A program made the translations under genes and the position numbers. Positions 6,591 through 14,859 of a stretch of 21,037 bases of DNA are shown in pieces. The number at the start of each line of letters is the position of its first letter. Position 1 is the stretch's first letter. The stretch is from a virus: positions 1 through 21,037 of IMG/VR virus record IMGVR_UViG_3300005527_000357; one strand, written 5' to 3'. The notes under the pieces were generated by a model. It saw only the letters and a program-made list of their open reading frames with translations. It searched no databases and was not told the DNA's origin.

Positions 6591-8048
6591 ATGAAAAAAT
6601 TTATTGTTTTGGGGGCAGGAACCTCTGGATTGATTGCAGCATCAATGATTAAAAAATATTGGGGAGATAAAGTTCAAGTTTCTCTATATTTTGATGCCAA
6701 AAGAAAAAATATAGGTGTTGGTGAAAGTACTACACCAATTATTCATTTATTCCTTAATTCTCTGGGAATAAAAACTGAAGATTTAATTAGAGACTTAAAT
6801 GTAAGTGTAAAATTAGGAATAAATTTTAAAAATTGGATTCCCAATACAGAATATTTTCATGGATTTAAAGAAGTTTCTTTTTGGGGGGAGTCGGATCAAT
6901 CAAGTGCAATCTATTCTATTCTAAACGATTGCTATAATGGTGGTCTACTTTATAATGAAGCAACATCTACATTACCAAAAAAAACTTTTGATTATAGTCA
7001 TGCGCTGCACATTGATACACAAGAATTTTCAAATTATATTTTTGGAAAGATGAATAACGAGATTGATTTTATTGATGATATTGCTGAAAAAATTAATATT
7101 GAAAATAATCAAATTGAAAGTATAGATTTCAAAAATAGTGGAAATGTAAAAGCAGATTTTTATATTGATGCCTCTGGATTTAACTCTATGTTAATTAAAA
7201 ACTTAAAGGTAAAGTGGAATGACATTACAGATTATTTGCCAATTGACAGAGCAATTCCACAACAAATTCCATATGATTTTGAAGAAGTGCCATCTTACAC
7301 GTTAGCAGAAGCGACAGATAATGGATGGATATGGCAGATACCAATTGGAAATCGATATGGAACTGGATATCTTTATTCTTCCAGATTTACTTCAGATGAA
7401 GAAGCAAAAACAAAATATAATTGTTGGCTATTAGAAAAATTTGGAGTTAGATTGCAAACAGACAAAATTATTTACTATAAACCTGGATATTATGATCAAG
7501 CATGGGTTGGAAATTGTTTAGCAATTGGTCTTTCAAGTGGATTTGTAGAACCGCTAGAGTCTACTGGTATTCACATTATCATAAATCAAATTAAAGATTT
7601 TATTTCTTTAAATTCAAATTTAACCTTCTTGGAATATAATAGAAAAAAATTTAATGAAATAAACCTAAATGCTTATAAAGTCATCGTGGATTTTATTTGT
7701 CTTCATTATAATACAAATAGATTTGATTCTGACTTTTGGAAATACATGACTGAAAATAAAACTGAATGGGTCAGAGATTTTGAGGAAAAATGTAAGTACG
7801 AGTTTTTAGATGCTAAAAATCTAGGCAATAATTCAACCAAATTTGTTTGGTCACTTGATAATTTTATTCAAGTTTCAAACGGATTAAATATGTTTGATAA
7901 AAATGCAATTCGAGATTTCTTAAATTCAAAAAGAAATAAACAACAGATTTTAGAATTTGCAAAAGAACATTATGAATATACGAAAATTAAAAAATTAGAA
8001 AATCAAAGAATATCACATAAAGAAATTATAAACGCCATTCATAAATAA
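6591..8048 (+). CDS. Flavin-dependent halogenase (tryptophan-halogenase family, VirX1-like)
   Basis: A 485-residue enzyme with every hallmark of FADH2-dependent halogenases: the nucleotide-binding G-A-G-T-S-G at residues 8-13, G-V-G-E-S-T-T-P at 42-49, a Lys at 74 aligning with catalytic Lys79 of PrnA, W-I-W-Q-I-P (W-x-W-x-I-P signature) at 246-251, and E-P-L-E-S-T-G at 320-326, which holds the Glu and halide-site Thr/Gly of the family. These enzymes use reduced flavin, O2 and a halide to make hypohalous acid, which is relayed by the Lys to an electron-rich substrate. A viral member, VirX1 of cyanophage Syn10, is known and favours iodide. The substrate here is unknown, and a flavin reductase is not encoded nearby, so the host would have to supply FADH2. 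The gene lies between two structural genes, 11 bases after the fibre gene, with no clear ribosome-binding site. It appears intact. Confidence 0.9.
   Translation: MKKFIVLGAGTSGLIAASMIKKYWGDKVQVSLYFDAKRKNIGVGESTTPIIHLFLNSLGIKTEDLIRDLNVSVKLGINFKNWIPNTEYFHGFKEVSFWGESDQSSAIYSILNDCYNGGLLYNEATSTLPKKTFDYSHALHIDTQEFSNYIFGKMNNEIDFIDDIAEKINIENNQIESIDFKNSGNVKADFYIDASGFNSMLIKNLKVKWNDITDYLPIDRAIPQQIPYDFEEVPSYTLAEATDNGWIWQIPIGNRYGTGYLYSSRFTSDEEAKTKYNCWLLEKFGVRLQTDKIIYYKPGYYDQAWVGNCLAIGLSSGFVEPLESTGIHIIINQIKDFISLNSNLTFLEYNRKKFNEINLNAYKVIVDFICLHYNTNRFDSDFWKYMTENKTEWVRDFEEKCKYEFLDAKNLGNNSTKFVWSLDNFIQVSNGLNMFDKNAIRDFLNSKRNKQQILEFAKEHYEYTKIKKLENQRISHKEIINAIHK
8040..8047 (+). promoter_or_regulatory. Late promoter box CATAAATA
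   Basis: A NATAAATA box made from the end of the halogenase gene (CAT AAA TAA) lies 18 bases before the next ATG, exactly the spacing seen at 4769. It probably drives the glycine-rich adhesin gene late in infection. An AAGGA-like stretch follows it, but it is 13-14 bases from the start codon, too far to be a normal ribosome-binding site. Confidence 0.6.
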
Positions 8049-8065: not shown

Positions 8066-9607
8066 ATGGCAGTAACAGTATCAAAAGCTGGTCCTTATTA
8101 CTCTTCAGGTGCTATTTCCTTTAGTTCTTTAAGATCTAATTTTCGTGCTCAGCAGAGAAAACAAACCTCTTCTACAACTGAGACATTTAATAGTGATACT
8201 GGTCAAATTAGTGTTTCAGAACTAAAAAGAATCATAAGTACAACAAATACAGACCCAGTTGTTCCAGATTCTACCGAAAATGCCAATATTTCAACATCAA
8301 ATAATTGGAAAACATCACAATTTAGAAATTCAGTAAAATATTATTATCTTACTCAAAGTGATACTGAACTTAATCTTGATATCTCAAATCAATCTTGGAA
8401 TAATAATTTAAATAAGAACATTAGAAAATTTTTGTTTATTGATGGAATCTGTGGATCTGTAAATACTTCTACTCCATCTGCAATATTGAATACAATTGCA
8501 CATAATTTGGTAATTGATGTTTTTGGTCAAATTTTTGGTGCTTCTGGAAGAGGAGGTGGAACTGGTAATGGCGCACCTGATCCTGGAGGTGAGAATGGTG
8601 GAAACGCTTTTTCGTTATCTCCCATCGGTGGAAATAATGTTAATGTTTTATTAAGACCATCGGCACAAGTATATGGTGGCGGCGGTGGAGGTGAGAGAGG
8701 ATCTCAAGGTGCTCCTGGAGGCGCAGGATCTTGTTATAATGAATATACGACTCAAGGATGTGGCGGAGCTCCTGGTTGCGGTAGTGGTTATAATGATGCT
8801 GGAACTTGGGGTGGGAATTGTTGTCAATCTACTTGCGATTGGTGCTGGGGTTGTTGTGAACGATGTGTGAAAAATACTCAGTATCGTCGATGTACTCAAT
8901 ATTCAACAATCACTGCTGGAGCAGGTGGATATGGAGGAACAGGTGGATATGGTAGAGGATATAATAATCAAGATGGAACTTTATTAGGGTCTCCTGGAGG
9001 TCTTGGTTCGGATCCTGCAGGTGCTGGATATTCCTTATCATCTATCGGATATTACTGGACAGAAAATAATGATGATGCTTTCTTAAATGTAACTGGGAGT
9101 GGATCTGCCCGAATTACTATGGAAATTGATACAAATGATAATCCAAATACTAATGGTAGATGTTACGATACGATTAGAGTTCGTGATGGTAATACTGCAG
9201 CGTATGCAGAAATATTCTCATGGAATTTTAAAAATGGAATTAGAAGATATACTTTTAATGTATCTCCAAAGACATATATGGTGCAAATTTCTGGAAATCC
9301 AAGAAATGTTCTAATTAGAGATAATGGTGTTAAGTTGAGAGACAATAGTGGAGATGATACAAATGCAAGAATTTATATAACCTCTGTTGATCAATATACT
9401 TTGTCGTATAGCCCATCAACTTGTGGTGCTACTCGTGGATCAAATGGAGAATCCGGTGGTTCTGGTGGAGATTGGGCAACATCTGGATCTGGCACCACAG
9501 GAGCTACAGGTGCAGGAAATGGTGGATCGGCAATTGTTGGATCAAATTATACAATATCAGGATCAATAAATGCATCAACTATAAAGGGATCTTATCAACC
9601 ACAATAA
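8066..9607 (+). CDS. Glycine-rich adhesin-like virion protein with cysteine-rich insert
   Basis: A 513-residue protein. The N-terminal ~150 residues are a Ser/Thr/Asn-rich domain (MAVTVSKAGPYYSSGAISFSSL) like those that attach short fibres in cyanophages. Then come glycine-rich tracts (about residues 160-240, 284-320 and 450-495), reminiscent of the polyglycine-II helices of T-even gp38 adhesins and related tail tips. Between the first two tracts lies an insert with eleven Cys in residues 223-276, including C-C, C-x2-C and C-C-x2-C spacings. A beta-rich segment follows at about 330-440. Collagen-like G-x-y order is not seen. The location after fibre genes and a late promoter box support a receptor-binding role; this is inference, and no sequence feature names a receptor. 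Several short overlapping frames inside the glycine tracts are by-products of the GGT/GGA repeats, not genes. Confidence 0.7.
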   Translation: MAVTVSKAGPYYSSGAISFSSLRSNFRAQQRKQTSSTTETFNSDTGQISVSELKRIISTTNTDPVVPDSTENANISTSNNWKTSQFRNSVKYYYLTQSDTELNLDISNQSWNNNLNKNIRKFLFIDGICGSVNTSTPSAILNTIAHNLVIDVFGQIFGASGRGGGTGNGAPDPGGENGGNAFSLSPIGGNNVNVLLRPSAQVYGGGGGGERGSQGAPGGAGSCYNEYTTQGCGGAPGCGSGYNDAGTWGGNCCQSTCDWCWGCCERCVKNTQYRRCTQYSTITAGAGGYGGTGGYGRGYNNQDGTLLGSPGGLGSDPAGAGYSLSSIGYYWTENNDDAFLNVTGSGSARITMEIDTNDNPNTNGRCYDTIRVRDGNTAAYAEIFSWNFKNGIRRYTFNVSPKTYMVQISGNPRNVLIRDNGVKLRDNSGDDTNARIYITSVDQYTLSYSPSTCGATRGSNGESGGSGGDWATSGSGTTGATGAGNGGSAIVGSNYTISGSINASTIKGSYQPQ

Positions 9608-13485: not shown

Positions 13486-13715
13486 GTACCTCATACATTT
13501 ACTTTATCATATTCTTTTGCATCGCATATCTGATTATCACCGATCAATCAGTCGCAAGAGGGTTTTATATGCTCACTCAACTTGCAAGAGTTCAATATGA
13601 AAAGACAAAGTGGTGGATATTACATAATCCTGCAAATCCGATTGTGAAGTATCTTATGTGGCGTCGGTCTATGAAACTCGCAAAAGAGTTAATGGATGAA
13701 TACAAAAATAAATAA
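13482..13715 (+). CDS. 77-aa single-pass membrane protein
   Basis: An N-terminal hydrophobic segment (residues 4-20, Y-I-Y-F-I-I-F-F-C-I-A-Y-L-I-I) is followed by an amphipathic, basic region with Trp pairs (K-W-W-I-L, M-W-R-R) and a Lys-rich tail. This indicates one membrane span and a charged cytoplasmic part. ATGA overlap with the previous gene. Role unknown; small phage membrane proteins often act in lysis timing or superinfection, but nothing specific is seen here. Confidence 0.75.
   Translation: MSTSYIYFIIFFCIAYLIITDQSVARGFYMLTQLARVQYEKTKWWILHNPANPIVKYLMWRRSMKLAKELMDEYKNK
13707..13714 (+). promoter_or_regulatory. Late promoter box AATAAATA
   Basis: Made from the last codons and stop of the membrane-protein gene (AAT AAA TAA), as at 4769 and 8040; 22 bases before the next ATG, with a GGAG ribosome-binding site between. 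Confidence 0.55.
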
Positions 13716-13735: not shown

Positions 13736-14059
13736 ATGCTTTCCACACAATACAGACTCAGACTTGAATCAATTTGTGATAAGATTGTAAAAGGTGAGTC
13801 AGTTGAATTAAGTGAAATGATTTGGTGTGAAAAACTCGCCAAAGCAAACCGAAGTGCTGCAACAATCCTTCGTCAGGCAAGAAGGAGAGCAGAGAATCCA
13901 GATATGGTAGAAGGTGACTTAGACGACTTTATGAATCAATTAGATATTGGTGGATTGGGTCACGAAAGATTTGGTCGTCGTGGTTTTGATTCTCCTGATG
14001 ACTTACACGATTGGTTTAAGAGAGATGAAGATGACACTGATTGGCGCACTCGTGATTGA
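13736..14059 (+). CDS. 107-aa conserved-type cyanophage protein
   Basis: A GGAG site about eight bases upstream sets the start. The N-terminal 55 residues form helices with L-A-K-A-N-R-S-A-A-T-I-L-R-Q-A-R-R-R-A, basic and possibly nucleic-acid or protein binding; the C-terminal half is acidic (D-L-D-D-F-M-N-Q-L-D-I-G-G, D-S-P-D-D-L-H-D-W-F-K-R). From memory this type occurs in many T4-like cyanophages next to small late genes; function unknown. Preceded by a late promoter box. Confidence 0.75.
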   Translation: MLSTQYRLRLESICDKIVKGESVELSEMIWCEKLAKANRSAATILRQARRRAENPDMVEGDLDDFMNQLDIGGLGHERFGRRGFDSPDDLHDWFKRDEDDTDWRTRD

Positions 14060-14075: not shown

Positions 14076-14151
14076 TAAGTCTTGGCGGAATTATGTTGCG
14101 TAAGACCCACACATATGTTATTATAAATAGTATCAGTCACGCCAAGACTTA
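14076..14151 (+). repeat. 12-bp inverted repeat around a late promoter (RNA hairpin candidate)
   Basis: The arms TAAGTCTTGGCG (14076-14087) and CGCCAAGACTTA (14140-14151) are perfect complements with a 52-base loop. The right arm ends two bases before the ATG of the homing-endonuclease-like gene, so in a transcript running from upstream it would hide the ribosome-landing site. The late promoter at 14122-14129 is in the loop; RNA started there lacks the left arm and cannot form the stem. No T-run follows, so it is not a terminator. Confidence 0.75.
14122..14129 (+). promoter_or_regulatory. Perfect T4-type late promoter TATAAATA
   Basis: All eight bases of the T4 late consensus are matched. 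It is the best of the six boxes and the only one that does not touch a stop codon. A transcript would start near 14135, inside the hairpin loop and before the right arm. Confidence 0.75.
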
Positions 14152-14153
14152 CA

Positions 14154-14627
14154 ATGAAAGTATCACAACACCCCCTATATCATACTTGGAATGGTATGAT
14201 ACGCAGATGTAAAGATCCAAAAAATATAAACTATTCAGAGTATGGTGCTCGTGGGATAGAAATTTTTGAAGAGTGGTCTGAAAGAGGGTTTCACGGCACC
14301 ACACAAACTCCGCCAGGTTTTATAAAGTTTCTAAAATATATTGATGAAAATTTGGGTGAAAGACCAGAAGGATATTCTATTGATAGAATAAACAACAACT
14401 CTGGATATATTCCTGGCAATATAAGATGGGCAGACAACTCTACACAAAATATAAATCGCAGATGTCCCAATGGTGAGTTGAGAAATATAAAAAAAGTCCC
14501 ATCTGGTAAATATCAAGTCAATATGTGGCATAAAAAGATTAACTACTATGTTGGCACTTATGATACGATAGATGAAGCAATTATTGCCAGAGATTGTTAT
14601 AGAAAAATGTTACAAGAGACAACTTAA
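14154..14627 (+). CDS. Homing-endonuclease-like protein (HNH-type with AP2-like C-terminus)
   Basis: 157 residues. The N-terminal ~110 match the phage endonuclease family with H-x-W-x-x-M-I-x-R-C, Y-x-x-Y-G-A-R-G-I, L-G-E-R-P-E-G-Y-S-I-D-R-I-N-N and G-Y-I-P-G-N-I-R-W-A-D; residues ~118-155 (S-G-K-Y-Q-V, Y-V-G-T-Y-D-T-I-D-E-A) look like an AP2 DNA-binding module, which often accompanies such nucleases. These free-standing genes copy themselves by cutting alleles that lack them. The gene sits between two unrelated small genes, is flanked by a hairpin leader with an internal late promoter, and has no other regulatory signals; no intron is evident. It appears complete. The target site is probably in the neighbouring intergenic sequence of empty phages; this is inference. 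Confidence 0.75.
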   Translation: MKVSQHPLYHTWNGMIRRCKDPKNINYSEYGARGIEIFEEWSERGFHGTTQTPPGFIKFLKYIDENLGERPEGYSIDRINNNSGYIPGNIRWADNSTQNINRRCPNGELRNIKKVPSGKYQVNMWHKKINYYVGTYDTIDEAIIARDCYRKMLQETT

Positions 14628-14630
14628 CCA

Positions 14631-14834
14631 ATGAAATCCTATCAAGAGTTTATAGCAGAAGAAGAAAAGTCTTCTAAGGAAACAGCAAAATATCAAAATC
14701 ATCCGAAGGGCAATGAGAAGTGCTCCAATTGTAATATGTGGAGACCACCGAATGCCTGTACCGCAGTAAAAGGAAAGATTGCTGCCGATGGTTGGTGCAA
14801 GTGGCATCAGTATGATAGAAAAAACAAAGATTGA
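14631..14834 (+). CDS. HiPIP-like iron-sulfur protein with T4-type capsid-targeting N-terminus
   Basis: 67 residues. The first ten, MKSYQEFIAE, are nearly identical to the capsid-targeting peptide of T4 internal proteins (MKTYQEFIAE), whose I-A-E end is the cleavage site of the head protease gp21. Residues 31-58 have C-x2-C-x8-C-x12-C with a G-W-C-x-W ending, the arrangement of high-potential iron-sulfur proteins (short form), which hold a 4Fe-4S cluster. HiPIPs normally act as periplasmic electron carriers in bacteria. A reasonable inference is a protein packed inside the head and trimmed after Glu10. Alternatively the fold binds zinc or no metal. It follows the endonuclease gene by three bases and would be made from the late promoter at 14122. 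Confidence 0.7.
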   Translation: MKSYQEFIAEEEKSSKETAKYQNHPKGNEKCSNCNMWRPPNACTAVKGKIAADGWCKWHQYDRKNKD

Positions 14835-14859
14835 CAAACTGCCCTAGATACCCTATAAT
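14831..14859 (+). promoter_or_regulatory. Consensus sigma-70 promoter
   Basis: TTGACA (14831-14836), a 17-base spacer and TATAAT (14854-14859): a perfect match to the bacterial consensus. The -35 overlaps the stop of the HiPIP-like gene. Transcription would begin near 14866, fifteen bases before the next ATG. Such host-like promoters serve phage early genes, and it heads the long run of small genes. Confidence 0.9.

Follow-up and report, generated by a model that had tools for sequence, protein, structure and literature searches.

The virus record that we analyzed (hereafter the window, 21,037 bases) contains a gene for a small protein in which a decapeptide resembling the capsid-targeting sequence of phage T4 internal proteins directly precedes an iron-sulfur domain of the HiPIP type. 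Because the first ten residues match the T4 head tag, the virus probably packs a redox protein in its particle. The whole explanation, that the gene encodes a virion cargo which is packed, cut, ejected and redox-active, appears reasonably likely to us. The features of the gene are as follows:

14631-14834, + strand: HiPIP open reading frame, ATG to TGA, 67 aa, product MKSYQEFIAEEEKSSKETAKYQNHPKGNEKCSNCNMWRPPNACTAVKGKIAADGWCKWHQYDRKNKD.
14631..14660, + strand: capsid-targeting-like propeptide MKSYQEFIAE, with Y4, F7, I8 and E10 as the T4-mapped determinants and a predicted gp21-type cut after codon 10 (T4 ipII/ipIII, NC_000866; PMC9026906; 47/47 complete relatives).
14661..14831, + strand: predicted mature HiPIP of 57 aa, 6.6 kDa as apoprotein, pI 9.2 (Pfam HIPIP, PioC match, computed mass and pI).
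14721..14798, + strand: codons of the predicted cluster ligands C31, C34, C43 and C56 (Iro ligand spacing, PMC10654088; 48/48 rows).

The open reading frame is a real gene, given that relatives were recovered in viral-contig scans, that tblastn yielded 48 distinct rows, and that the gene is under purifying selection: among 53 distinct coding sequences, dN/dS is 0.048 overall, 0.095 for residues 2-10 and 0.033 for residues 31-59. Relatives were collected in three viral-contig scans, of which the best 80 of 85, 85 and 87 matches were taken, and a tblastn search with the window protein matched 204 of 204 loci, many of them the same contigs fetched repeatedly and one of them the isolate S-SRM01. 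One of the resulting 48 rows (L092) is truncated by the contig end and was excluded from the N-terminus counts, leaving 47 complete rows. All 47 start with MK, and E10 and the four cysteines are present in 48 of 48. Homologues lacking the N-terminal peptide or the cysteines, which would have spoken against the original prediction, were looked for, and none was present in the 48 rows, within the pattern-based scans; likewise, the matches listed from two scans (the best 80 of 85 with the HiPIP core alone and the best 80 of 87 with a profile into which PioC was mixed) included no relative without the peptide. The loci had been chosen by peptide patterns derived partly from the cysteine region, and cysteine-free relatives may therefore be missed; the family count obtained with a pattern requiring four cysteines did not change when it was repeated with tblastn.

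The isolate S-SRM01 encodes a HiPIP, QPX48026.1, that is 88% identical to the window protein and is annotated as hypothetical, and a HiPIP identical to the window protein is encoded by record G001 (174,667 bases). When PioC was used as query against 50,697 phage records, S-SRM01 (two records, one phage) was detected at E 1e-6 and, besides, three matches at E 5-7; phage matches beyond S-SRM01 are weak, with E above 1. The phage HiPIP core was found in none of the bacterial genomes searched, and the PioC-mixed profile matched two Rhodopseudomonas PioC proteins there. As photosystem reaction-centre genes are present in 7 of the 15 HiPIP-bearing records and the host of S-SRM01 is a Synechococcus, we conclude that the HiPIP-bearing viruses are cyanophages.

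A predicted short HiPIP domain

The cysteine arrangement that had suggested a HiPIP, C-x2-C-x8-C-x12-C with G-W-C-x-W, is indeed present, with cysteines at residues 31, 34, 43 and 56 and GWCKWH at residues 54-59, and the assignment is independently supported by homology to PioC. PioC is the best sequence match of the window protein in the PDB (E 2.4e-10). Two other HiPIPs come next (E 0.0023 and 0.39, the second being weak), and the family profile matches PioC with an E of 2.9e-12. PioC and the phage protein can be aligned over 48 residues without a gap and with 38% identity, the short HiPIP region corresponding to residues 12-59 of the window protein. The Pfam family HIPIP (PF01355) matches the window protein with 24.2 bits, above its cut-off of 22; in the 15 records with relatives, 10 matches are above the cut-off and all 15 are at E<=0.001. 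The Pfam and PioC matches of the window protein speak against a chance resemblance.

According to PMC10654088, the cluster ligands of Iro are Cys24, Cys27, Cys36 and Cys49, and its stabilizing aromatics are Tyr14, Phe30 and Tyr48, the last of which is Trp in PioC. Adding seven to these positions gives C31, C34, C43 and C56 and Y21, W37 and W55 of the phage HiPIP, all of which are invariant in 48 of the 48 tblastn rows. Membership in the Iro iron oxidase family (NF041615) was considered and rejected: the E value is 1.7e-10, but the score of 41 bits lies below the curated equivalog cut-off of 100, and the window protein is therefore not a member.

AlphaFold produced poor models, with a mean pLDDT of 54 when 19 phage HiPIP sequences were used and of 59 when 16 of those 19 were combined with two PioC homologues, and a Foldseek comparison of these low-confidence models with the PDB gave no usable match. 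The fold is therefore assigned from the sequence, from which we consider it very probable that the window protein adopts a HiPIP fold with a cluster.

Other HiPIPs carry electrons outside the cytoplasm. Among 14 control genomes, the HIPIP family matched in one, Haloferax; since the control list of the sister search includes Synechococcus elongatus, there is no sign of a host HiPIP pathway in this single cyanobacterium. The N-terminus of genomic PioC is, by eye, an export signal of the twin-arginine type, and the PioC-like match in the window protein starts at residue 12, directly behind the tag. Judged from the sequences, the putative head tag occupies the place of the PioC export signal, with one targeting peptide in the position of another.

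A putative N-terminal address shared with virion proteins

The original prediction placed the first ten residues of the HiPIP one residue away from the capsid-targeting peptide of the T4 internal proteins. In the T4 record (NC_000866), ipII and ipIII begin with MKTYQEFIAE, from which the HiPIP differs at position 3 only, whereas ipI begins with MKTFKEFTST; the claim thus holds for ipII and ipIII and fails for ipI, which means that two of the three T4 internal proteins carry the peptide. The first ten residues of T4 IPIII are enough for packaging, with targeting depending mainly on positions 4 and 7 and processing on positions 8 and 10 (PMC9026906). In the 47 complete HiPIP relatives, position 4 is F in 41, L in 4 and Y in 2, and position 7 is F in 46 and Y in 1. 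Position 8 is L in 45 and I in 2, and position 10 is E in all 47, in agreement with the gp21 consensus that had been read in the I-A-E end of the peptide. Position 9 is S in 32 of the 47. The residue behind the predicted cut is Glu in the window HiPIP and Ala in T4 ipII and ipIII. The major capsid protein of S-SRM01 contains an FLSE-A stretch ending at residue 54, which is a candidate processing site.

Besides the conservation of the targeting and processing positions, the reading of the decapeptide as a capsid address is independently supported by the presence of the same N-terminus on cyanophage virion proteins detected by mass spectrometry. The address was expressed as a tight motif, [MVL][KR]x[FYL]xx[FY][LIMF]xE, which all 47 complete HiPIP relatives fit. 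In the window it occurs once, at the HiPIP start, and at open start-codon positions it occurs at 4 of 11,486 in S-CREM2, 2 of 13,561 in S-SZBM1 and 5 of 15,989 in S-SRM01.

In purified virions of S-CREM2, which has 219 coding genes, 52 proteins have been identified (Table 3 of PMC10665884); N-termini were read for 50 of them, ORFs 85 and 130 being left out as they cross locus edges. A first pattern, fixed before the S-CREM2 N-termini were read, matched three annotated starts, those of the SAM hydrolase gp6, of gp13 and of the cytidylyltransferase gp154, and all three are virion proteins in that table (p about 0.013, calculated by hand). When GTG starts were allowed, the kinase gp14 was added, which is also listed as a virion protein. 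For the tight motif, which was fixed after the first S-CREM2 matches had been seen, all four matching genes (gp6, gp13, gp14 and gp154) encode listed virion proteins, with a hypergeometric p of 0.0029. A looser motif added gp136 (MQTFSMFFSE), listed in the virion, and gp175 (MNWLKNYLIE), not detected there according to the same table. The two tight-motif genes of S-SZBM1, SSZBM1_191 and SSZBM1_192, are both absent from the 30 virion proteins listed for that phage. S-SRM01 has the tight motif on four genes, encoding the HiPIP, the cytidylyltransferase, a PHROG 1742 protein and a 447-aa protein, plus one 18-codon frame; virion mass spectrometry was not found in the available main-text passages of the S-SRM01 paper. 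In record G001, the motif is present on the HiPIP, on a member of PHROG 1742 and on two other genes, and the looser pattern gives three extra matches that are not gene-start-like.

The cytidylyltransferase T4-GC190 is the best independent case for a head address in cyanophages. It has been detected in virions of S-SM1 (PMC3037559) and S-SCSM1 (PMC9602691), and it is also among the virion proteins of S-SZBM1 and S-CREM2. Nine of the 526 cytidylyltransferase records were read, a small sample in which the tight motif is present in eight phages: MKSFLQFLKE (S-SCSM1), MKSFSQFLTE (P-SSM2), MKSFFQFLSE (S-SM2), MKSFLNFLFE (S-CAM7), MKLFNQFFKE (S-CRM01), MKNFNSFLTE (S-B68), MKNFSSFLTE (S-CREM2) and MKNFHQFITE (S-SRM01). 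The ninth, from S-SZBM1, has only a shortened MRFRQFIIEA, and yet it is virion-detected.

The window spans no head genes, and a head protease was searched for in related records. The prohead protease family PF03420 is present in 4 of the 15 HiPIP-bearing records and in four of the five larger than 140 kb, including G001, the record with the identical HiPIP; it was not found in G006 (174 kb) nor in the ten HiPIP records smaller than 140 kb. The S-SRM01 gene at 135233-135883 (L164, 30233-30883), annotated as 'primosomal protein', is a gp21-type prohead protease (PF03420 E 7.9e-37, phrog_207).

Some further observations concern other proteins. The four PHROG 1742 members that were read (S-SRM01, S-SZBM1, G001 and G011) have the same N-terminal peptide; this family is of unknown function and occurs in 135 phage records, and the S-SRM01 gene (126582-126890; L164, 21582-21890) sits among structural genes. 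G001 encodes, at 56341-56991 on the - strand (L173, 16741-17391), a 216-aa protein starting with MKTFSEFIAEARR that has, by eye, ADP-ribosyltransferase-like motifs; it had no Pfam or NCBIfam match, its PHROGs match was weak and covered residues 1-15, and a PDB search gave nothing convincing. The virion protein Cas9 of S-CREM2 (gp12; L154, 7704-10313) contains a capsid-address-like KPLRFASFMAEA at residues 15-26, and it may be loaded into the head on purpose.

Gene neighborhood and expression signals

Around the HiPIP gene, the following features were identified in the window:

13708..13714, + strand: ATAAATA resembling a late promoter, 28 nt upstream of the ORF at 13736.
13736..14059, + strand: upstream gene, PHROG 507 (function unknown), whose S-SRM01 counterpart shares one base with the HiPIP gene.
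14123..14129, + strand: ATAAATA resembling a late promoter, 31 nt upstream of the HNH gene.
14154..14627, + strand: HNH endonuclease gene, between the PHROG 507 and HiPIP genes and 3 nt before the latter; absent at this place in S-SRM01.
14831..14859, + strand: perfect sigma-70 consensus TTGACA-17-TATAAT (12/12), beginning at the HiPIP stop codon, ahead of a run of small ORFs.

Because the PHROG 507 and HiPIP genes overlap by one base in S-SRM01, the HNH gene of the window looks inserted, together with its own late-type promoter. ATAAATA is the core of T4-type late promoters. Its number in the window, 7, shows no excess over the 7.3 expected; all seven copies are on the gene strand, and six of them lie 25-31 nt ahead of an ORF start. 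In the 650 nt that precede the HiPIP gene, it is present in the forward orientation in 26 of 46 loci and in the reverse orientation in none of the 46, a forward-only bias to which strand-biased composition could contribute; in 22 of 48 the heptamer is absent. The strand and positions of ATAAATA are suggestive of late HiPIP expression, alongside head assembly. The sigma-70 site likely starts the next transcription unit, as judged from its sequence and position, and it is not conserved, a similar site being present within 120 nt downstream in 2 of 46 relatives.

A conserved neighborhood of the HiPIP gene was considered and rejected, as a PHROG 507 gene was found upstream in only 18 of 49 loci (pattern search). 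Elsewhere in the window, the product of the gene at 8066-9607 is adhesin-like and rich in glycine, and it contains a cysteine-dense block (CCQSTCDWCWGCCERCVKNTQYRRC), which is unusual in a tail adhesin. The 485-aa ORF at 6591-8048 likely encodes a flavin-dependent tryptophan halogenase, since the matching part of S-SRM01 includes an equally long protein annotated as a halogenase.

Proposed route, alternatives and known systems

The course of events that we infer is as follows. The HiPIP would be synthesized late, and its residues 1-10 would direct it into the prohead core, where a gp21-type protease would cut it after Glu10. The resulting basic, PioC-like high-potential [4Fe-4S] protein of 57 aa and 6.6 kDa would be retained in the head beside the DNA and, on infection, ejected with the genome, as T4 internal proteins are. 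In the newly infected cell, or packed against the DNA, it could then act as a one-electron carrier or donor, or as a redox buffer, during the first minutes. A high-potential cluster would remain reduced in the host cytoplasm, which favors the role of electron donor or redox buffer. That the HiPIP is a head cargo is probable from its sequence, and by analogy with T4 it may well be ejected into the host. A redox role there is the weakest step of the proposal and is put forward tentatively; we know of no redox partner for it in the cyanobacterial cytoplasm.

The same gene might instead be an ordinary auxiliary metabolic gene, its HiPIP working in the host cytoplasm and its peptide being a shared phage N-terminus with another role, for instance in translation or in docking to some phage protein. 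The two S-SZBM1 motif proteins that are undetected in virions would fit this explanation, as would the lack of virion mass spectrometry in the available passages on S-SRM01, but the fit of the T4-mapped targeting and processing positions in 47 of 47 relatives, the presence of all four S-CREM2 tight-motif products in its listed virion proteome, and the virion cytidylyltransferase with the same start in eight of the nine phages read argue against it, and we regard it as rather unlikely. A different possibility accepts the packaging and drops the redox work: a HiPIP-derived fold would serve as a small basic protein with a DNA-associated or anti-defence role, in the manner of T4 IPI, its cysteines holding a structural metal or a redox-idle cluster. 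The pI of the predicted mature protein is indeed near those of predicted mature T4 IPII (9.56) and IPIII (9.65), and T-even internal proteins have been described as a varied set of defence proteins that have nothing but the capsid-targeting sequence in common. Against this stand the invariance of the HiPIP-special residues Y21, W37 and W55 and of the cysteine spacing in the 48 rows, and the strong constraint on the core, whose dN/dS is the lowest measured, as expected if the cluster matters; this explanation seems unlikely.

A head-borne cluster could also be a store of iron and sulfide for the host machinery after infection, and a packaged iron-sulfur protein would bring four iron atoms per copy. 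HiPIP clusters are tightly held and buried, and the kept aromatics fit stability rather than release, so we consider iron supply very improbable. The preferred reading remains a redox-active head cargo.

Extended beyond this gene, the preferred reading would mean that cyanophages inject a ready HiPIP, its export signal swapped for a capsid address, before phage gene expression, and that cyanomyoviruses load a SAM hydrolase, a kinase, a cytidylyltransferase and possibly Cas9 by a T4-type N-terminal address; we offer this wider view as a conjecture. If true, a photosynthetic cell receives a redox cofactor protein from a virus, and iron travels within the phage head; moreover, a short sequence rule predicts injected cyanophage proteins, so that the actions of cyanophages in the first minutes of infection become testable from sequence.

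The proposed mechanism is of a known kind, that of the T4 internal proteins, and the HiPIP cargo appears new to us: in the titles and abstract starts of open-licence literature, we found no earlier report of a phage-encoded HiPIP or of a capsid address in cyanophages. As in T4 IPII and IPIII, the decapeptide fits the targeting (4 and 7) and processing (8 and 10) positions, the predicted mature protein is small and basic, and a gp21-type protease gene is present in related phages; unlike them, the predicted cyanophage cargo is of the HiPIP type and has Glu instead of Ala after the predicted cut. The protein resembles PioC of Rhodopseudomonas palustris (a short HiPIP, 6xyv) in the gap-free 48 residues, the cysteine spacing and the Trp before the last cysteine, and it differs from PioC in that a putative head tag stands at the site of the twin-arginine-type signal and in its extra C-terminal tail, WHQYDRKN. 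With Iro (NF041615) it shares an identical cysteine spacing, although its score is below the cut-off for membership. The address-like stretch of the S-CREM2 virion Cas9 is an internal look-alike only, unlike the N-terminal tag of the HiPIP. Finally, the motif is common to the HiPIP and to the virion-packaged cytidylyltransferase, SAM hydrolase and kinase of cyanophages, but these are enzymes detected by mass spectrometry, whereas for the HiPIP a role as electron carrier is predicted.
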